Assembly (NCBI GenBank): GCA_946534105.1
Contig: CAMNCG010000015.1
Location: 1-34,649 of the forward strand
DNA from: an uncultured Verrucomicrobiota bacterium
GTDB lineage: Bacteria > Verrucomicrobiota > Kiritimatiellia > RFP12 > UBA3636
Direction: 5' to 3'
DNA length: 34,649 nt
This document shows, one piece after another, positions 1,864-28,608 of the stretch (positions within the stretch are counted from its first letter, which is position 1; every line of letters begins with the position of its first letter). The notes below the pieces were generated by a model. That model was not told the DNA's origin, ran no database searches, and saw only the letters and a list, made by a program, of their open reading frames with translations. The translations under genes were made by a program, and so were the position numbers.

Positions 1864-2847
1864 ATGATTACGGCAATACTATTCCTTGTCGTCGCCGGAT
1901 TCAGCTGGGTTTCCGTCGGGGCCGCCGTCGGCCATGTCGAGCGGCAGGGCTACAGTCTTGTGCGCTACCAGTTCCTGGTCTGCGCCGTATGCGTGACGCT
2001 TGGGCTCGTCGGCTGGGTGACCGCGCCGACCGCTTTCTTCCCGCACGACGGATGCCCGGCCATGACCTGGATTCTCGTTGTCGCGGGAATGCTTTTGTGC
2101 GGCGCATTCAACTACCTGATGGCCCTTTTGATGGGATGCGCGATGAAGCGGGGGCCGAACGCCATCGTCTGGGCGATTATCCAGTCGGGCCTGATCTACC
2201 CATTCCTTATGGGGTGGCTGATATTCAGAGTCCCGATGGGACCTCGGCGATTCTTCGGAATCACGCTCATCATTGCCAGCGTCTTCTTCTATGCGCTTCG
2301 GAGTGGGGCGGCGGAAGGGAATGCCTCGTCCGGGGCGCGCGCCCCGCTCCGCGAATGGCTTCCGGCGTCCCTGCTCGGCATGCTCTGCTGTGGCGTCAAC
2401 CAGTGCGCCGCCAACCTGCCATCGTATCTTGAAAAGGGTCGCGATTTTTCGGGCACGTTCCGCACCTTCGCCATGTATTTCGGGTTGCTGATGGCGGCGT
2501 TTGTCCACGTTGGAATCCTGCGCCTGCGCGGCCATCGCGCAGAACCGATACGGCCTGGGGAGTTGCGCTCGCTCGCCGTTTGGGCCGGCTCCGTCGGGCT
2601 TGTATCCTTTTTCGTCGGAAAATATCTTACGTTTCCGGGTCTGGACAGACTGGAACGCCTCGGTGCCGGATCGATGGGGTATCCGGTGATGGTCGCCGCG
2701 TGCATCGTCGGCTTCTTCCTCTACGGGTTTTTCGTTCTGCGCGAGCGCATCAGCGCGTGCCAGGCCATCGGCGCCGTCCTTGGCATCGCGGGCATCCTGT
2801 TCGGATGTCTTGATTCCGCGGGCGGTGAGGTTGCGCTTCCGGGTGGC
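1864..2847 (+). CDS. EamA/DMT-family permease, about 10 TM, lacking its own stop codon
   Basis: Strongly hydrophobic MITAILFLVVAGFSWVSVGAAVGHVERQGYSLVRYQFLV...FFVLRERISACQAIGAVLGIAGILFGC. The ORF continues in frame to 3477. The 3' boundary is approximate. Confidence 0.7.
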
Positions 2848-3229
2848 GTCACAACCTCCGCCCCCGGTTGGACATTCACCGAAGAGGAGGCGTCGGTGTT
2901 TTTCGTGGACCGCGGGGAACGGCAGGCGGACGACGGGAAGATGGAGTGGTGCCTCTTTGACTGGCGCTGGAACGAAGTCAAGCGAGGCGAATGGCCCGCC
3001 GACGGGCGGCTGGAGCTCGCCCCGCTTCCGCCGGGGTACTACCGCATGGAATCCGGTAGGGACGCGCCCACGGCGCGTCCGCGCGAAGACGGACGTTTCG
3101 TGGAAACGTCCCTACCGCCGTTCGACTTCTGCGTGGTGCGCCGCGATCCGTGTCGGAATCCCGACTCCCCCTTCGCCGTCGATTTGGCGCTGTCGCACCG
3201 CGCCGACACCTTCGACTGCCCGTGGTACG
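2848..3229 (+). pseudogene. Duplicate of the N-terminal region of the glycosidase at 6299-8893, fused behind the permease
   Basis: VTTSAPGWTFTEEE...DWRWNEVKRGEWPADGRLELAPLPPGYYRMESGRDAPTARP...FDFCVVRRDPCRNPDSPFAVDLALSHRADTFDCPWY is nearly collinear with 6395-6791 of the full-length gene, including a shared palindromic element. Confidence 0.8.
3054..3117. repeat. Two-hairpin palindromic element inside an ORF (copy A)
   Basis: CGGTAGGGACG (3054-3064) / CGTCCCTACCG (3107-3117) outer arms; inner hairpins GGACGCGCC-cac-GGCGCGTCC (3060-3080) and GGACGTTTC-gtg-GAAACGTCC (3091-3111), all perfect. Confidence 0.9.
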
Positions 3230-3477
3230 GCAGCGTCCAGATCGACCTCCTAATCCAAACGGAGCGCTCCGCCTACCTCGTGGAGATTAAGCGGCAAAAC
3301 CGGATCGGGCGCGAAATCGAAGACGAGGTGGAGACGAAGATGTGGCGACTGCCCGTGCGCCGGGGCGTTTCCATCCATCCCGTCCTTGTCCATCTGGGCG
3401 AAGTGTCCGGCGAAGTTGACGGGGACGGCTTCTTCGACGCCATCATTCCCGCCGAATCCCTGCTGCAATCATGCTGA
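3230..3477 (+). pseudogene. C-terminal fragment of an AAA-ATPase-family protein with a PD-(D/E)XK-like domain
   Basis: VQIDLLIQTERSAYLVEIKRQNRIGREIEDEVETKMWRLPVRRGVSIHPVLVHLGEVSGEVDGDGFFDAIIPAESLL has a D...EIK core, as in C-termini of ATP-binding proteins of the archaeal-ATPase/DUF234 type. It is in frame with the preceding fragment. Confidence 0.55.
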
Positions 3478-3479
3478 CC

Positions 3480-5100
3480 ATGCAAAGCGCCATGAAAGTG
3501 AAAAAAGGCGACTCCAGCGATGCCGTCATCGACATCGGCCCGTGCGACGGCAACGCGACGCCCGCCGTCGTCGCGGCGGCGTCGCGGCTCCGCGACGGCG
3601 GCACTCTCCGCTTCGCCCCCGGCGAATACCACTTCTTCGAGGAGGGGGCGAAGGACCTCTTCCTCGCCTCGCCCGGAAGCTCGACCGGGCCGAAGAAGGT
3701 CGCCATCCACATCGAGGGACGGAAGGACGTGACGATTGACGGCGGCGGCGCCCGCTTCGTCTTCCACGGCCAGACGTTCCCCATCGTCGCGCAGCGCTGC
3801 GACGGCCTCGCCATCCGCAACTTCACCTCGCGCGTCTTCCAGCCCGCGATCGCCGAGTTCACGATTCTCGAGAAGGGCGACGACGGCTTCCTCTGCCAGT
3901 TCGCCCCGGACTCCCCGCCCTACGAAACGACGGACGACGGCACGATCCTCTTCGACACCGACGAGGGGCGCATCGACTCCCATGCGCAGGTGCTCTCAGT
4001 CCACGCGCTTCGCTTCTGCCACATCCAGTATCTTGCGACGCCCAGCTGCCTTCACGACAAGGACACGCTCGCCTCGACGTTCTATTCCGTCGCCGCCGAG
4101 GACCGGGGCGGCGGCAAGGTCTTCTTCCGCTACTGCGGCGACCCCCACCCCAAGAACGCCGGCAAGTGCAGCTACCCCGCGGGCGAGCCGCTCTGCATCC
4201 TCCTCGGATGCGCCCGCACCCGCTCGCTGATGTCGATTTCCGACTGCCGCGACGTTGAGGTCGCCGATGTCGATGTGCGTAGCGGCACCGGCATGGGCAT
4301 CGTCGCGGACCAGTGCGAGAACGTCCGCATCCTCCGCTACAAGGTCCGGCCCGACGAGGGGAGCCTCGTCTCGCTGACGGCCGACACGATGTTCCTCGTC
4401 GATACGAAGGGGCGCATCGAGATCGCGGGATGCGAGAGCAGCTGGAGCCTCGACGACGCCATCAACATCCACGGCAACTACACGGCCCTGGATTCGGTTG
4501 ACGGGCGCCACGCCACGCTGAAGATCCAGCATCACGCCTACGCCGGCTACTTCCCCTACCGCGTCGGCGAGAAGGTGGAGTTCTCGCGCGGTCATGGTAC
4601 CGGAAAGGCAATTCTCGGCCGCGCCGCCGTGGCGGAGTTCCCCGCGCCGGGCCGCGACACGACAAGCGCGCAAATCGTCTTCGACCGCGAAATCCCGCCC
4701 GAATGGGCCGGATGCGACGTGGCGAACGTCTCCCACGTGCCAACGATCTGGATCCACGGCAACCACTTCCACGACTTCCTGCACATCCGCCTCTCCGCCT
4801 TCGCGGACATCCTCTTCGAAAACAACCGGCTCTCCAACGGCCAGAGCGTGATGATGGTGGACGACCTCACGGGCTACTGGGGCGAATGCGGGCCCGTCCA
4901 CAACCTCACCGCGCGCGGCAACGACTGCGCCGACATGCGGCACACCTTCTTCGACTTCCACGTGCCCTTCACCGGGCGGGCGGTCGTCGAGGGCAACAGG
5001 CTTTCCGGCCCCGGCTCGGACAACCCCTTCACCCTCGGCCCCGGCGTCGAGGTCGCGCGGGGGCGGAGGACGCGCCCACGGCTTCTGGCAGGGCCGCGTC
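3480..5100 (+). CDS. Right-handed beta-helix protein, GH110-like (alpha-1,3-galactosidase type), probably 3'-truncated
   Basis: ORF 3471-6302, first about 540 aa: LRDGGTLRFAPGEYHFFEEGAKD...VTIDGGGARFVFHGQTFPIVAQRCDGLAIRNFT...CESSWSLDDAINIHGNY...NGQSVMMVDD. The sequence degrades to GRRTRPRLLAGPRPAHPLRHR at a repeat fragment. Confidence 0.6.
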
Positions 5101-5101
5101 C
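5068..5101. repeat. Partial copy of the same palindromic element at the beta-helix/WbsX junction
   Basis: GGACGCGCCCACGGC (5068-5082) is identical to 15 nt of copies A and B; GGACGCG/CGCGTCC arms span 5068-5101. Confidence 0.6.
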
Positions 5102-5150
5102 CGCGCACCCGCTCCGCCATCGCTTCCTCAGCCGTGCAAGGAAAGATAAA

Positions 5151-6302
5151 ATGGACGTTCTCTGCATCTACTATCCGGAGTGGCACGTCTATCCCGAAGG
5201 CGAGGCGATCTTCGGCAAGGGCCGCACGGAGTGGGACTACGTCGATTCGGCCGTCCCGCGCTTCCCCGGCCACGAGCAGCCCCTGCGCCTCACGGCGGGC
5301 CATCCAGACGACTCCAACCCGGCCGACGTGGCGGGGGAGATCGACCTCGCCGCGGACGCCGGAATCGACGTCTTCCTCTACGACTGGTATTGGGCGGATG
5401 GCCATCCCATCGCGCACGAGGCGCTGGAGCGCGGCTTCCTGTGCGCGCCGAACCGGGGTCGGATGAAGTTCGCGCTCATGTGGGCGAACCACCACCGCTC
5501 CGATGTCTTCCGCACTGCGCCGGGCACCTGCAACGACCGCCTCTGGTGGACCCTCCGCTACGACCGGGAGGAGTTCCTCGACGCGATCGACTACTGCATC
5601 GCCCACTCCTTCGCGGCGCCGGAATACTACCGCAGGGACGGGCGGATATTCCTCTCCATCTACTCGGCGGCCGCGCTCGTCGATGGCCTCCGCGGCCCCG
5701 AGGCGGCGCGGAAGGTCTTCGCCGAGGCGCAGGCGCGGATGGCGCGGGCGGGGCTTCCCCCGCTGCACCTCTCGGCGATGGTGCGCGACCCGGAGACCGC
5801 AGTTCGCATGGCCGATGCGGGCTTCGACTCGACCTCCGCCTACAACGTCACCCCCTACGATTTCGACGATTCTCTGGTCGTGGAGGAGACGGGCGAGCGG
5901 CGGCAGCTCTTCACGCACGAGGAGTTCGCCGACCTGCATGCGACCTTCAACGCTAAAATCGCGGCCGGCTCGCCCGTGCCGTTCATCCCCGTCGTCTCGC
6001 GCGGCTGGGATCCCTCGCCGCGCTGCCGCCTCGACGAGCCGTTCCCGTGGAGGACGCTCCAGTACCCCTACCTCGGCATTATCCGGGACCTTTCGCCGGA
6101 GGTTTTCGGCCGATGCGTCCGCGATGCACTGCGCCTGGCCGCCTCGGACCCGAAGCGCCCTGGCGCGATTCTCGTCAACGCCTGGAACGAATACACTGAA
6201 GGCAGCTACCTGATGCCCGACCTCCACAACGGCGACGCCTACCTCCGCGCCCTCCGCCAGGCCTGTGGCGGCTATCAAGGAAACAGAGGAACTCAAGAAT
6301 GA
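5151..6302 (+). CDS. WbsX / GH99-like (PF14307-type) protein
   Basis: MDVLCIYYPEWHVYPEGEAIFGKGRTEWDYVDSAVPRFPGHEQP...IDLAADAGIDVFLYDWYWADG...GAILVNAWNEYTEGSYLMPD. It has its own ATG with AAGGA-like SD about 9 nt upstream, but is also open in frame from the beta-helix ORF. Confidence 0.65.
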   Translation: MDVLCIYYPEWHVYPEGEAIFGKGRTEWDYVDSAVPRFPGHEQPLRLTAGHPDDSNPADVAGEIDLAADAGIDVFLYDWYWADGHPIAHEALERGFLCAPNRGRMKFALMWANHHRSDVFRTAPGTCNDRLWWTLRYDREEFLDAIDYCIAHSFAAPEYYRRDGRIFLSIYSAAALVDGLRGPEAARKVFAEAQARMARAGLPPLHLSAMVRDPETAVRMADAGFDSTSAYNVTPYDFDDSLVVEETGERRQLFTHEEFADLHATFNAKIAAGSPVPFIPVVSRGWDPSPRCRLDEPFPWRTLQYPYLGIIRDLSPEVFGRCVRDALRLAASDPKRPGAILVNAWNEYTEGSYLMPDLHNGDAYLRALRQACGGYQGNRGTQE

Positions 6303-8893
6303 GAAATCCCAAGGAACGCAAGGGGCTACCCTTCCAGATAATCGTCGCGACCCTCTGCATCGTCCTCTGCGCCGACTCGGCGCTCTCATCTGCGGTCACC
6401 ACGCCCGCCCCAGGCTGGACCTTCACCGAGGACGAATCGCCGGTGTTCGTCCTTTGTCCTTCGTCCTTCGTCCTTGACGGTGGAGGCGCCGACAGCGCCT
6501 TCACCGTCCTCGACTGGCGCGGGAACGAGGTGCGGCGCGGCGAATGGCCCGCCGATGGTCGGCTGGAACTCGCCCCGCTCCCGTCCGGCTTCTACCGCGT
6601 CGAAACTGGTAGGGACGCGCCCACGGCGCGTCCGCAAGGCGGTCGTTTCGTGGAAACGCCTCTACCGGAGGCGGTGGCCCCCTTCGACTTCTGCGTGGTG
6701 CGCCGCGACCCCTGCCGGAACCCCGACTCCCCCTTCGCCGTCGATTCGGCCCTCTCGCATCGCGCCGAGACCTTCGACTGCCCGTGGTACGACGGCGACA
6801 CCTTCCGCGTCGTCTGCGAACTCATGCGCAAGTGCGGCGTCGCGCAGACGCGCGAGCGCATGGTGTGGAAGGGCATGAACCCCGAACCCGGCGTCTTCAC
6901 ATACAGGCGCTGGCTCGACAACGCCGCGCACCTCCGCGCAAACGGCCTCATCACGACCGGCATCTTCGCCGGGACGCCCGCCCACGCCGGCGGCGAGGAG
7001 CCCGGCCGCCGCCAACTCCCGACCGACCTTATGGCGCTCTACACGCTCATGACGAACGCCGTGCCGACCTTCGGCGACGCCTACAACGCCTGGGGCTTCT
7101 GGAACGAACCCGACCTCCAGATGGTGCCCGAACCCGTTTGGGAATACGTCGCGGCGTTCAAGGCCTTCGCCCTCGCCGTGCGGGCGGCGGACCCGGCCAA
7201 GCCCGTCCTGCTGGGCGCGCTCGCCGACGTGCCGGACCAGGACTTCGGCGGCTGCCTCGCCGCGAACGAGTTTCCGAAGTACGCGGACATCTTCAACATC
7301 CACACCTACCTGGAGCCTTCGCGGCTCCCCGGCTGGAACGCCGCGCTCCGCGCCTACCTCGCACAGTGCGGCCGCCCCGACTGGGCCGTGTGGCTGACCG
7401 AATTCGGCACCAACCTCGAAGGCGACTCGACGGCGGAGGGCGTCCGCCCCGGCCTCAAGGCGCATTCGCCGGAGCAGGAGATGGTCTGGGCGGAATGGTA
7501 TCCGAAGGCCGCGATCCTCGCGCAGTCGCTCGGCATCGACCGCTCGTGGCTCTTCCTCTTCGGCTGCTACAACGAGCGCGGCGGGCGCAAGGACTGGGGC
7601 ACGATGCGCCGCGACGGCAGCGTGAAGCCGATCCACGCCGCGATTTCCACGCTCACCGGCGAACTCGGGGATGCGCGGTTCCTCGGCGAAGTGAAGGTCG
7701 GCGAAGGCATCCGCGCGTTTTTGTATGAGAAACCTGGGAGCCCGCGCTCCCAGGAGGGCATCCTGCCCGCAGATGCTGCGTCCCGCCAGACCCTTGTCTT
7801 CTGGAGCGTTTCCGAGATCGACACCGCCACGCAGGGCCCGGTGCATCCGAAAGGCGCGCTGGAGCGGCCGTTATCCCTTCAAGGGGGCGCGGGGGGCGCA
7901 GCCACCCGTCCTTTCCGCCTCACCGACATGATGGGCACGCCCCTTCCGCCGCCCGCGCCCGCCGCCGACGGGACACTCGCGCTCGTCGCTGAGCGCTATC
8001 CGCGGTACCTCACCGGCGATCTCGGCCTCGCGCCCGACATCCCCGCGCCGCCGCGCGGGCGCATCATCCGCTACGAGCCGGCTCCCGGCGAGGACCTCAC
8101 GGTCGTCGTGTGCCCGAAGCTCTCCGCCGATTTCGAGATTGCCGGCCACAAGAGCCGCGCCGAACTCACAAAGGAAACCGGCGCGATTTCCGTCGAACTC
8201 TGGAACTTCTCCGGCGAGGAGAAGCGCGGGCGGCTCGTGGTGGAGGGCGGCACCTTGTCCCGCGCTCCGGCGGAAACGCCGGAGCCCATCGTCCTTCCGG
8301 CGTGGGGCCATGTCTCCATCCCCTACCGCCACGCGCCGTCCGCCGACACTCCTCTCGACGCGACGCTTGCATTTCGATTCGAGTCCGAAGCCGGTGTTTC
8401 CACGCCGGCGCGCGTCCCGGTCTTCGACCGGCACCGCTTCCTCGCCTCGTGCAAGGTCGTGCCGCTCGCGCTCGAAGATCCCGCGAGCTGGCGCCGCAAC
8501 GATTCCGGGCAGACCTACCGCTGCGCCTACGACGAAAAAGAGAAAGCCGTGCGCTTCGACGTGGGCTGGACCGGCGAAACCGGGCCGTGGTTCATGCCGT
8601 GGCACGACCTGAAACTTCCGGAAGAATCCCTCGAAGGCGCGAAGATGATCGAATTCGAGGTGAAGAGCGAGCAGGACAAGGTGGAGAACGACTACAACTC
8701 GGCGGTCTTCCTGCCGACGTGGGCGGACGGCCGGACGCAAAACATCCACTACCCACCGCCGGGGTTCAACTGGGAGGTGCGGCGCGTCGCGCTGCCGCCG
8801 GACGCGGGCGGCATCGTATCCTTCCGCCTCGGCGGCGCGCCGCGCGGGCGGCGCCTGACCTTCTGGATCCGCAACGTGCGGCTCCTGAAATGA
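6299..8893 (+). CDS. Secreted clan GH-A glycosidase (GH39/beta-xylosidase-like), full length
   Basis: Signal-peptide-like N-terminus; AGAGGA-type SD upstream; barrel motifs FWNEPDLQMVPEPVW and VWLTEFGTNLEG (candidate catalytic Glu residues). Confidence 0.65.
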   Translation: MRNPKERKGLPFQIIVATLCIVLCADSALSSAVTTPAPGWTFTEDESPVFVLCPSSFVLDGGGADSAFTVLDWRGNEVRRGEWPADGRLELAPLPSGFYRVETGRDAPTARPQGGRFVETPLPEAVAPFDFCVVRRDPCRNPDSPFAVDSALSHRAETFDCPWYDGDTFRVVCELMRKCGVAQTRERMVWKGMNPEPGVFTYRRWLDNAAHLRANGLITTGIFAGTPAHAGGEEPGRRQLPTDLMALYTLMTNAVPTFGDAYNAWGFWNEPDLQMVPEPVWEYVAAFKAFALAVRAADPAKPVLLGALADVPDQDFGGCLAANEFPKYADIFNIHTYLEPSRLPGWNAALRAYLAQCGRPDWAVWLTEFGTNLEGDSTAEGVRPGLKAHSPEQEMVWAEWYPKAAILAQSLGIDRSWLFLFGCYNERGGRKDWGTMRRDGSVKPIHAAISTLTGELGDARFLGEVKVGEGIRAFLYEKPGSPRSQEGILPADAASRQTLVFWSVSEIDTATQGPVHPKGALERPLSLQGGAGGAATRPFRLTDMMGTPLPPPAPAADGTLALVAERYPRYLTGDLGLAPDIPAPPRGRIIRYEPAPGEDLTVVVCPKLSADFEIAGHKSRAELTKETGAISVELWNFSGEEKRGRLVVEGGTLSRAPAETPEPIVLPAWGHVSIPYRHAPSADTPLDATLAFRFESEAGVSTPARVPVFDRHRFLASCKVVPLALEDPASWRRNDSGQTYRCAYDEKEKAVRFDVGWTGETGPWFMPWHDLKLPEESLEGAKMIEFEVKSEQDKVENDYNSAVFLPTWADGRTQNIHYPPPGFNWEVRRVALPPDAGGIVSFRLGGAPRGRRLTFWIRNVRLLK
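6445..6475. repeat. Heptamer tandem repeat inside an ORF
   Basis: GTTCGTC CTTTGTC CTTCGTC CTTCGTC CTT. Confidence 0.85.
6476..6508. repeat. 14-bp-arm hairpin inside an ORF
   Basis: GACGGTGGAGGCGC-cgaca-GCGCCTTCACCGTC, 13 of 14 arm positions pair. Confidence 0.85.
6608..6666. repeat. Palindromic element inside an ORF (copy B, second hairpin decayed)
   Basis: GGTAGGGACGCGCCcacGGCGCGTCC...GGTCGTTTCgtgGAAACGCCTCTACC; 3 bp shorter than the corresponding segment of copy A. Confidence 0.85.
7733..7768. repeat. Double-hairpin element inside an ORF
   Basis: CCTGGGAG-cccgcg-CTCCCAGG (7733-7754), then GGGCA-tcc-TGCCC (7756-7768). Confidence 0.8.
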
Positions 8894-8956
8894 CGCCGCC
8901 AAACGTTCCGCTGGACGCAGACGGTCGATGGGGGTAAAATTCATTGTCATTGAACC

Positions 8957-9826
8957 ATGAGACCTGAGACTTCCTCCATCGGCGACCCATCGGCGGCCGC
9001 CTTCCAGTGCGACGTGGACGCCACGCCCGCCTCCGCATTCCAGCCGTTCCGCTTCGCCGGGGCTACCCTTGACGAGGCCGCGCGCCTCGCCGCCTACGGC
9101 GCGGCGCCGGCCCTGCGCCGCTATGACGAAGCGTTCGACAAGGTCGTCGCCGAGGTCCGCGCGGCCGAGGTCCCCGACGGCTCGCCTCCGGCCGTGTGGT
9201 TTCTCTACAACATGGGAGTCGTTGTCAAGACGCCTCGCGCCGTTTTCGGAATCGACATCGCGCACCGAAAGGGGACGCTCCTGGCTCCGCTTCTCGACTT
9301 CGCGCTCGTCACGCACAACCACGACGACCATGTCGACGCCCCCTTCCTCGAAGCCATGGACGGCGCGGGCAAGACGGTGGTGTCCAACTTCTTCGACAAC
9401 TACGGCGCGTTCCGCGGAGGCCGCATGCCGGGCGGATACACGCGCGGCGGCAAGACCTTCGAACTCGGCGACGCCACCATTCTCACGGTTTCCTCCGACC
9501 ACAACGGCTACCTCGTGGACTTCACGCTGACATTCGAAATCCGCGTCGGCGACTGGACGCTCTACCACACCGGCGACTCGGCGAATCTCGGCAAGCTCCG
9601 CCCGGCGCGGACGCCCGACCTCTGGTTCGTGCATCCGCGATGCGGCATCGATCCGGCCGAAGCGGCGCAGACATTCCATCCGCGCCGGACCGTCCTCGGC
9701 CACACCTGCGAACTGGGCCACTCGAAATGGCGCTGGACGCTCGCCGACGCCGGCGAAGACGCCGAACGACTCCGCATCGACGGTTTCGAGTCCATGGTTC
9801 CACTTTGGGGCGACAGAATCCAATAG
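8957..9826 (+). CDS. Metallo-beta-lactamase-fold hydrolase (UlaG-like)
   Basis: VTHNHDDHVDAPF metal-binding motif (HxHxDH-like), ILTVSSDHNGYLVDF, LYHTGDSANLGKL, VLGHTCELGH. Confidence 0.65.
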   Translation: MRPETSSIGDPSAAAFQCDVDATPASAFQPFRFAGATLDEAARLAAYGAAPALRRYDEAFDKVVAEVRAAEVPDGSPPAVWFLYNMGVVVKTPRAVFGIDIAHRKGTLLAPLLDFALVTHNHDDHVDAPFLEAMDGAGKTVVSNFFDNYGAFRGGRMPGGYTRGGKTFELGDATILTVSSDHNGYLVDFTLTFEIRVGDWTLYHTGDSANLGKLRPARTPDLWFVHPRCGIDPAEAAQTFHPRRTVLGHTCELGHSKWRWTLADAGEDAERLRIDGFESMVPLWGDRIQ

Positions 9827-25570: not shown

Positions 25571-26506
25571 ATGTCTCCAGATTCGCTCCCGGCATTAGCG
25601 GCAGGAACCGCCTCTGGCATTCTCGCGGCGTTTCTGCAGTCGTGTTCCTACCTCGTTTCGGCGCGTTACGTGCGCCTGTCCGGGCGGGAACCCTGGACGC
25701 TTGTCCCGCCTTCCTACCTGCTGATGACCCCGGCGGCCCTGGTTCTCGCCACCGCCGTGGCGCCGTTCGCGGACGGACCGCTCCCGCTCGCGGAGGTCCT
25801 GAAGCCTGCCGCGCTGGCGACGGCGTTCTGCCTCGCCGCCAACATCTGCATGTTCCGGCTCCTAAAGAGCGTGGATGCCTCCATCGCGTCGCCCATGCTT
25901 GGTCTTAAGGTCCCGATGCTCGCGGCTCTCTACACATTCGGGCTTGGGCGGCCATGCACCGCGGCGCAGTGGATCGCAGTTGCGCTCGTCCTCGCCGCCA
26001 CGGCCGCGCTCACCGCCGCCGGGAGCCGGATGTCCCGGACGTCGTGGTGCTGGACGCTCGCGACGTGCGCCGTCTTCTGCGTTGCAGACTGGTTCATCGC
26101 GGAGACGATTTCCGTCTCCGCGACCGCCTTCCCGTCATTTGGCCCGCGCGCCCTTTTCGCCCTTGCCTCCATCTACATCGTTAGCGGCGTTGTCGCGGCG
26201 GTTTTCCTGCCGTTCTGCCCGCCGATGCCGCACGGCGGATGGATGCGCTGGGCGGTGCCCTACGCGGCCGTGTGGTTCTCTGGCATGGCCGCGTTCTACG
26301 CATGTTTCGCCCTGTGCGGAATCGTCCTCGGCAACATCGTCCAGAACACGCGCGGCCTGATTTCCGTCGCGCTGGGCTGGGCTGTGGCCCGCGCCGGCCG
26401 CACCGAGATAGAGGCCCGCGTGACGCCGGCCGTATTCTTCAGACGCATCGCCGCCGCAATCCTCCTCCTTGCAGCCATAGCCCTCTACGCCTTGGGTGTC
26501 CCTTGA
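25571..26506 (+). CDS. EamA/DMT-family permease
   Basis: Multi-TM hydrophobic protein (ILAAFLQSCSYLVSARYV...VDASIASPMLGLKVPMLAALYTFGLGR...), 16 nt after the preceding stop. Confidence 0.7.
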   Translation: MSPDSLPALAAGTASGILAAFLQSCSYLVSARYVRLSGREPWTLVPPSYLLMTPAALVLATAVAPFADGPLPLAEVLKPAALATAFCLAANICMFRLLKSVDASIASPMLGLKVPMLAALYTFGLGRPCTAAQWIAVALVLAATAALTAAGSRMSRTSWCWTLATCAVFCVADWFIAETISVSATAFPSFGPRALFALASIYIVSGVVAAVFLPFCPPMPHGGWMRWAVPYAAVWFSGMAAFYACFALCGIVLGNIVQNTRGLISVALGWAVARAGRTEIEARVTPAVFFRRIAAAILLLAAIALYALGVP

Positions 26507-26514
26507 TTTTCGTC

Positions 26515-28608
26515 ATGAAAGCGCTTTGGATAGACCTTCCAGCCGACGCAATGAACGTCGCGGCGGCTTTCCGCGTCACCCTCGATTTGCCCGACGGCGG
26601 CGCGACGCTGCGCCTCGCCGCCGCCGACGCCTACCGCCTATGGATTGACGGCCGTCTCGCCGCGCATGGTCCCGCCCGCACCGCGCACGGCTGCGCCCGC
26701 GTGGACGAGATTCCGCTCCCGTCCGGCCATGTCGCCGTCTTCGCCGAGGTTTACTCGGCGCATGTGCCGTGCTTCGACGGCGTGAACCAGGATGCCTTCT
26801 TCGCGGCGGAGGTGTTCGCGGGTGACGGCCGCATCCTGGCCACGACTCCCGACTTCGAGGCGTGGCGAGACCTCACGCTCGTCCAGAAGGTGCGGCGCAG
26901 CAGCTACCAGCGCGGCTTCCTCGAATCGCGCCGCCTTGCCGCCGACCCTGCGGCTTTCCGATGTGGCGGCCCAGCCCCGGAAGGGTGGGCGAGAGTCGCA
27001 ACCGTGCCTAGAACGCTGCCGCGTCTTCTTCCCCGCGGCGTTCCCTATCCGGTGCTCGACTTCCACGACGCTGGCGCGCCAACCGAACGCTTCCCAATCA
27101 CCTTCGACCCGGACGCGACGCCGACGCTGGGCCGCGAAATCACGCAGGTTGGCGACGGACGCGTCAAGGGATTCACCCCTGCCGAATGGGAGGACGACCC
27201 CGCACTGGACGCCGCACGGCTCTCCGCCATCACTTCAACCACGGAACACACGGAACACACGGAAGTTGCCCTCTACGACTTCGGCCGCATCCTAGCCGGC
27301 TTCCTCTCGCTGCGCGTCCGCGCCGCAGCCCCGACAGGCGCGACCATCCTCGTCGTTTACGACGAACTCCTGGCCCCGGGCGGCGCCAGCTTCCCCGTGG
27401 ATCCCTTCCGCGGCGCATGGACGCGCATCGTAAAGTGGCGCCTCGCGCCCGGAGCATACGACCTTCTTGCCTTCCACCCCGCAACAGTGCGCTACGCCGC
27501 CGTCGCCGTGATCGAAGGCAATGCGGAAATCGAAAGGCTCGGCATCGTCGATTTCGAGAATCCCGACAAGTCCCGCGCGGCTCTGCCCTCCACTGGCGAC
27601 GCCACGCTGGATGCCATCGTTGCAGCCGCGCGGGAGACTTTCGCGCACAATGCGGTGGATGTCTTCACCGACTGCCCAGCCCGCGAACGCGCCGGCTGGC
27701 TTTTCGACTCCTTCTTCACGGGCCGCGCCGAAGCGCTCTTCACCGGCCGCAACCTTGTCGAGCGGGCCTTTCTCGAAAACTACGCCCTCGCCCCGCAGTT
27801 TCCGGAACTGCCGGAGGGAATGATTCCGATGTGCTATCCAGCCGAGTCGCCGGGGCGCTCCTTCATCCCCAACTGGTCTCTCTGGTGGCTTCTGGAACTG
27901 CGGGAATACTTTGGCCGCACGGGCGACATCTCCGTCATCGACGCCTCGCGCCCCAAGATCAGGGCGCTGCTAGAATGGTTCCGCAAGTTTGAAAACGCGG
28001 ACGGACTTCTGGAGGACCTCCCCGGCTGGGTATTTGTCGAGTGGAGCCCCTGCAACGACAAAGACCACGTCAGCGGCGTGAACTTCCCCACGAACTTCCT
28101 TTACGCTGAGGCGCTGGAGGCGGCGGGTGCGCTCCTCGGCGACTCCGAGACCGTCGCGCACGGCGCGGCGGTGCGCGAAGCCGCGGCGCGCCTCGCCTGG
28201 AACGGCGAATGGTTCGAGGACAATGCCGTGCGCGGCGACGACGGCGCGTTGCGCCTCGCCGGCCACGTCACAGAGACCGGGCAGTACTACGCCTTCTACT
28301 TCGGCGCGGCAACGCCGGAGACGCGCCCCGCGCTCTGGAAGCGCCTTTGCGCCGAGTTCGGCCCGGGACGCGAATGCTCCGCCGTCCATCCCGGCATCCC
28401 GCCCTCGGACAGCATCCCCGGCGTCTATCTCAGGCTGGAGCTGCTGCTGCGCCATGGCCACGCCGGACAGTGTCTCGACGAATGCCGACGCATCTTCGGG
28501 CCGATGGCGCGCCTGACCGGGACGATTTGGGAGCACATTGCGCCAGGCGACAGCATGGACCACGGCTTTGCCGCCTCCGCGGCCTGCCTCGTTGTCAAAG
28601 CCCTGTGA
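26515..28608 (+). CDS. GH78-like alpha-L-rhamnosidase
   Basis: YDFGRILAGFLSLRVRAAAPTGATILVVYDE...DVFTDCPARERAGWLFDSFFTGRAEALFTG...WSLWWLLELREYFGRTGD...TGTIWEHIAPGDSMDHGFAAS: GH78 barrel hallmarks. Confidence 0.8.
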   Translation: MKALWIDLPADAMNVAAAFRVTLDLPDGGATLRLAAADAYRLWIDGRLAAHGPARTAHGCARVDEIPLPSGHVAVFAEVYSAHVPCFDGVNQDAFFAAEVFAGDGRILATTPDFEAWRDLTLVQKVRRSSYQRGFLESRRLAADPAAFRCGGPAPEGWARVATVPRTLPRLLPRGVPYPVLDFHDAGAPTERFPITFDPDATPTLGREITQVGDGRVKGFTPAEWEDDPALDAARLSAITSTTEHTEHTEVALYDFGRILAGFLSLRVRAAAPTGATILVVYDELLAPGGASFPVDPFRGAWTRIVKWRLAPGAYDLLAFHPATVRYAAVAVIEGNAEIERLGIVDFENPDKSRAALPSTGDATLDAIVAAARETFAHNAVDVFTDCPARERAGWLFDSFFTGRAEALFTGRNLVERAFLENYALAPQFPELPEGMIPMCYPAESPGRSFIPNWSLWWLLELREYFGRTGDISVIDASRPKIRALLEWFRKFENADGLLEDLPGWVFVEWSPCNDKDHVSGVNFPTNFLYAEALEAAGALLGDSETVAHGAAVREAAARLAWNGEWFEDNAVRGDDGALRLAGHVTETGQYYAFYFGAATPETRPALWKRLCAEFGPGRECSAVHPGIPPSDSIPGVYLRLELLLRHGHAGQCLDECRRIFGPMARLTGTIWEHIAPGDSMDHGFAASAACLVVKAL
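27241..27264. repeat. 9-bp tandem repeat inside the GH78 ORF
   Basis: ACGGAACAC ACGGAACAC ACGGAA, encoding (T)TEHTEHTE. Confidence 0.85.

Follow-up and report, generated by a model that had tools for sequence, protein, structure and literature searches.

The window analysed here is the whole stretch of 34,649 nucleotides of contig CAMNCG010000015.1, from an uncultured Verrucomicrobiota bacterium of the class Kiritimatiellia (genome G000, assembly GCA_946534105.1). Its strongest inverted repeat lies at positions 3054–3117, inside the ORF P0002 (1864–3477, forward strand), a chimera that combines an EamA transporter, an N-terminal glycosidase-family fragment and an ATPase-like C-terminus resembling an ATP-binding protein. 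The repeat, CGGTAGGGACG...CGTCCCTACCG, has perfect outer arms of 11 bp and two perfect inner hairpins of 9 bp, GGACGCGCC-CAC-GGCGCGTCC and GGACGTTTC-GTG-GAAACGTCC. The 64-bp palindrome claimed in the initial annotation was found at the right coordinates, and its folding energy was beyond that of 200/200 shuffled sequences (z = −4.5 as DNA and −6.5 as RNA). It is composed of two units of 26 nt, each with a GGTAG foot, a 9-bp stem and a 3-nt loop, arranged as an inverted pair with GTAG outermost. Unit A (3055–3080, forward strand, loop CAC) matched our covariance model, R1, with 44.6 bits and is identical at four other loci of the host genome; unit B (3091–3116, reverse strand), a TTT/AAA variant, matched it with 44.0 bits. 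As one strand, a single long hairpin is favoured over two small ones, which fits the layout of a REPIN (two inverted REPs, GTAG outside, a single hairpin); the anatomy of the element is that of a GTAG-REP head-head dimer. The proposed in-frame reading within a coding ORF was also borne out: the dimer encodes GRDAPTARPREDGRFVETSLP, with GRDAPTARP from unit A, RED between the units and GRFVETSLP as the gene-strand reading of unit B. A search of the region in Rfam returned no matching family, and a search of a plasmid collection no match. Another 11-bp inverted repeat, near 27571, is devoid of inner hairpins and looks like chance.

A second dimer, at 6608–6666, is hosted by P0001 (6299–8893, forward strand), a glycosidase-like protein of 864 aa. 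As the initial annotation had proposed, this is a paralogous copy: it occupies the homologous protein position and is one codon shorter, with an intact unit A (6608–6633, forward strand, 44.6 bits) and a decayed unit B (6641–6666, reverse strand, 23.2 bits). The idea that the host is a glycosidase held for this copy, which lies in a full glycosidase-like protein, but not for the copy at 3054, whose ORF is chimeric. P0001 had no match in Pfam or NCBIfam, and the label “glycosidase-like” comes from the initial naming and a general look, with no family match behind it. Full-length homologues of P0001 are present in genomes G001 (92% identity) and G023 (91%). Within P0001, the segment 7712–7775 carries adjacent small palindromes, CTGGGAGC...GCTCCCAG and GGGCATCCTGCCC, also in frame, and the G023 orthologue differs at this segment. 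Moreover, positions 2410–9152 of the window, as well as locus L247, are 91–97% identical over most of the stretch to G023, which belongs to another family; the likeness of 2410–9152 probably reflects horizontal transfer or a binning error.

To characterize the repeat family, 40 unit variants were gathered with a GTAG-like pattern in which 2 mismatches were allowed, and stems with fewer than 7/9 matches were left out. The stem co-varies: double-sided changes number 60, compared with 15.5 in shuffles, and the covariation score is 0.406, compared with 0.104 in shuffles. The GTAG foot is near-invariant, changes in the mid-stem compensate each other and 97.2% of the cells are paired, although the constancy of the foot and the high pairing arise partly by construction, since the variants were collected by pattern; this does not apply to the covariation itself. 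The search for further copies that had been suggested as a check found 12 clear units in G000 (one of them decayed), grouped in six dimers, and besides these a weaker solitary unit and a few marginal matches. Five of the six dimers are genic and in frame, in unrelated genes: the ORFs at 3054 and 6608, an esterase (C230) and two large proteins of the secreted-enzyme type (C60 and C17). The sixth is intergenic and follows the CTP synthase gene. The unit A stretch is identical across unrelated genes of this genome. Units were detected in 56 of 95 related genomes, order-wide, with up to 129 matches each (about 129 in both G025 and G042), and exact copies of unit A occur in 31 stretches of named MAGs, mostly of uncultured Kiritimatiellae/Verrucomicrobia and many from ruminants. 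In L211 (around 2059), and also in L134, L219, L222, L095 and L078, intergenic dimers are nested in a composite, MITE-like repeat, a larger palindrome of about 150 bp whose ends are TAGAGCGGTTTCA...TGAAACCGCTCTA.

The comparison with element-free orthologues revealed clean in-frame insertions. The syntenic locus of G023, 97% identical over 5 kb, has no insertion: its sequence there is ELAPLPPGYYRVEPAGFDFCVVRR, against ELAPLPPGYYRMESGRDAPTARPREDGRFVETSLPPFDFCVVRR in the window. This allele also differs further downstream, so that recombination between paralogues may have played a part. Homologues of the 6608 protein at 40–50% identity are element-free, and homologues of the C60 protein have about 13 residues fewer at the element site. 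Compared with solved structures, the unit brings no clear gain in length at a beta-galactosidase site. In related genomes, units were observed in GH2, GH42-like, GT4 and P-type ATPase genes, with the esterase also among the genic hosts. The suggested tie to carbohydrate-active enzymes does not survive this host range, which includes a P-type ATPase, nor the location of the 3054 copy in a chimeric ORF. Codon statistics and homology suggest that the peptides are translated, and we infer that the insertion sites are surface loops in which the inserts are neutral. A 1193-aa ORF in G002 (L138, contig C503) appears to contain a HAD-phosphatase-like segment fused in frame to another protein, with a REP unit adjoining; it is a second chimeric ORF close to a repeat.

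Reading phase was evaluated at nine independent stop-free sites of the own genus and family f6, taking the gene frame from the flanking codons only and counting orthologous or paralogous copies once. All nine were in the phase that reads GR......P. With three further sites picked by hand, 12/12 independent genic sites share one phase (P about 7e-5 if the open phases were equally used, a value that treats the sites as independent and concerns a phase that had caught attention ahead of the test). In genomes of family f3 the rule is looser, with some genic units in other phases; some units end ORFs by the TAG of the foot (L136). The unit spacings in genic dimers of the own genus (7, 10, 13 or 16 nt) all leave a remainder of 1 on division by three; in dimers that lie within the intergenic composite palindromes the spacing is 8.

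A candidate for the enzyme that moves these repeats was found in relatives. In G025, a protein of 156 residues matches the REP-associated tyrosine transposase (RAYT) model NF047646 of NCBIfam above its cut-off, as well as TnpAREP of E. coli (4er8) at 1e-8; four head-head dimers lie upstream of its gene and one unit directly downstream. Related RAYT genes accompanied by GTAG hairpins of the same class were identified in G042, G077, G051 and G069, and these five genomes represent other genera of the order. It took a scan of the G025 regions with the covariance model to reveal the association; a first set of Y1_Tnp loci had shown no GTAGGGACG flanks. Neither the own genome nor its genus yielded a RAYT with GTAGGGACG repeats beside it: G000, a MAG that is 87% complete, contains only weak RAYT relatives, none with flanking units, and the Y1_Tnp genes of the genus carry other repeats. 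For this reason, the mover is deduced from the relatives through repeat homology, which suggests that a RAYT could have moved the copies of G000. No target-site duplication was defined for the copies. Other Y1_Tnp genes of the order (L105, L101, L109 and L124) are flanked by different hairpin repeats, indicating that several RAYT–REP pairs coexist in it.

REP-type hairpin pairs usually lie only between genes. REPs are indeed named for being extragenic, and here most copies of one genome appear to be translated. The initial annotation had considered that such a class might be undescribed; however, in-frame intragenic GTAG-REPs, mostly dimers encoding 20–30 residues, were described in 2013 and are most numerous in the verrucomicrobium Opitutus terrae (Di Nocera et al., PMC3733652), and ORFs ended by the TAG of the foot were reported in other species (PMC3733652). 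The present repeats resemble those families in the GTAG foot, the stem (6–13 bp there, 9 bp + 3 nt here), the short loop, the head-head and tail-tail dimers, the presence of some in-frame copies within ORFs and the occurrence in the PVC group; they differ in forming a Kiritimatiellae family with GGTAGGGACG-NNN stems, in having 5/6 of the own dimers genic and in using one translational phase in this genus. With REPINs (REP doublets, PMC8049555) they share the two inverted REPs, the GTAG on the outside, the single hairpin and, in relatives, the association with RAYT; in contrast, many genic copies here are tail-tail or single units, the copy number is low and a cognate RAYT was not found in the own genome. 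The Kiritimatiellae family and its near-exclusive phase in the genus appear to be new within the searchable papers.

Taking together the unit anatomy, the covariation of the stem, the dispersal, the in-frame insertion relative to element-free homologues and the RAYT genes that in relatives carry the same repeats alongside, the element is very probably a GTAG-REP dimer (REPIN), a non-autonomous palindrome moved by RAYT that has repeatedly inserted in genes and survives as neutral translated loops of about 20 amino acids. The single-stranded hairpins would be recognised by the RAYT, an HUH/Y1 tyrosine transposase, and the recognised palindrome would be copied to other places, in this genus repeatedly into genes. 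Copies would survive in surface loops or linkers when the insert length is divisible by three and the phase free of stop codons; with survival limited to such sites, the remaining copies would be translated as neutral extra loops. Points against this reading are the low copy number in the own genome, the flanked RAYT not found there or in the genus, the possible recombination behind the G023 allele and the other phases in family f3. Given that many species are available, orthologues with and without the element can be compared directly, making it testable whether mobile palindromes supply usable protein loops and why one phase is kept.

Other explanations have to account for the same data. The original proposal was a coding palindrome of the Rickettsia type, that is, a selfish class of its own, so far undescribed and specialised for genic insertion. 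Rickettsia palindromic elements (RPEs), of about 150 bp (PMC10969869), are likewise translated in frame inside unrelated proteins, and the predominance of genic in-frame copies in the own genome (5/6 dimers) and the fixed phase in this genus agree with the proposal. Nevertheless, we consider it very unlikely, because the GTAG foot, the REP/REPIN layout of inverted pairs, with head-head and tail-tail dimers, and the cognate RAYT beside the same repeats in relatives are REP features; RPE-4 and RPE-6 are CGTC-tagged (PMC3733652), whereas the Kiritimatiellae unit has a GTAG foot throughout. In addition, there are copies between genes and in composite palindromes, and codon statistics class most of the examined G025 loci as non-coding. 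It is even harder to believe that the palindrome is a by-product of codons in ordinary conserved protein sequence. The copies at 3054 and 6608 do sit at matching positions of homologous domains, but the homologues at 40–50% identity, which have no such peptide, already contradict it, as do the occurrence of the same DNA in unrelated genes and at intergenic sites and the covarying stems with a constant foot. Neither of the two findings that would have spoken against the initial idea, an absence of other copies and the conservation of the residues in distant orthologues, was obtained.

An improbable alternative, somewhat less so than the Rickettsia-type class, is that the genic dimers are positively selected, for instance as stabilising mRNA hairpins or useful linkers, and not merely tolerated. 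In eight orthologous comparisons the elements differed less than their flanks (1.4% vs 3.3%, P 0.015), and insertions are retained in orthologues of several genomes. However, the signal is weak and uneven, since the flanks differ less than the element in C230 and in one w2 comparison; furthermore, the 6608 copy is decayed and the hosts have no common function.

Besides the GTAG-REP dimers, a different palindrome, CACAAAG...CTTTGTG, was observed in frame in the CTP synthase gene of G000 (contig C8; L003, 1149–1200). It corresponds to an insert of about 20 residues (SHKEHKGHKVFVDSVSFVAKN) that the best-matching CTP synthase of solved structure does not have; L129, L142 and L309 contain related copies, also in frame. 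We tentatively raise the possibility, which we regard as rather less than even, that several unrelated palindrome families (GTAG-REP dimers, CACAAAG...CTTTGTG and perhaps others) accumulate in frame, each with one preferred phase, including in the housekeeping CTP synthase. If this were true, there would be a lineage-wide, ongoing supply of translated loop insertions whose phase is fixed by some mechanism or by selection. In the window itself, positions 27238–27264 (CCACGGAACACACGGAACACACGGAA), read as TTEHTEHTE within the ORF at 26239–28608, look like another translated repeat.
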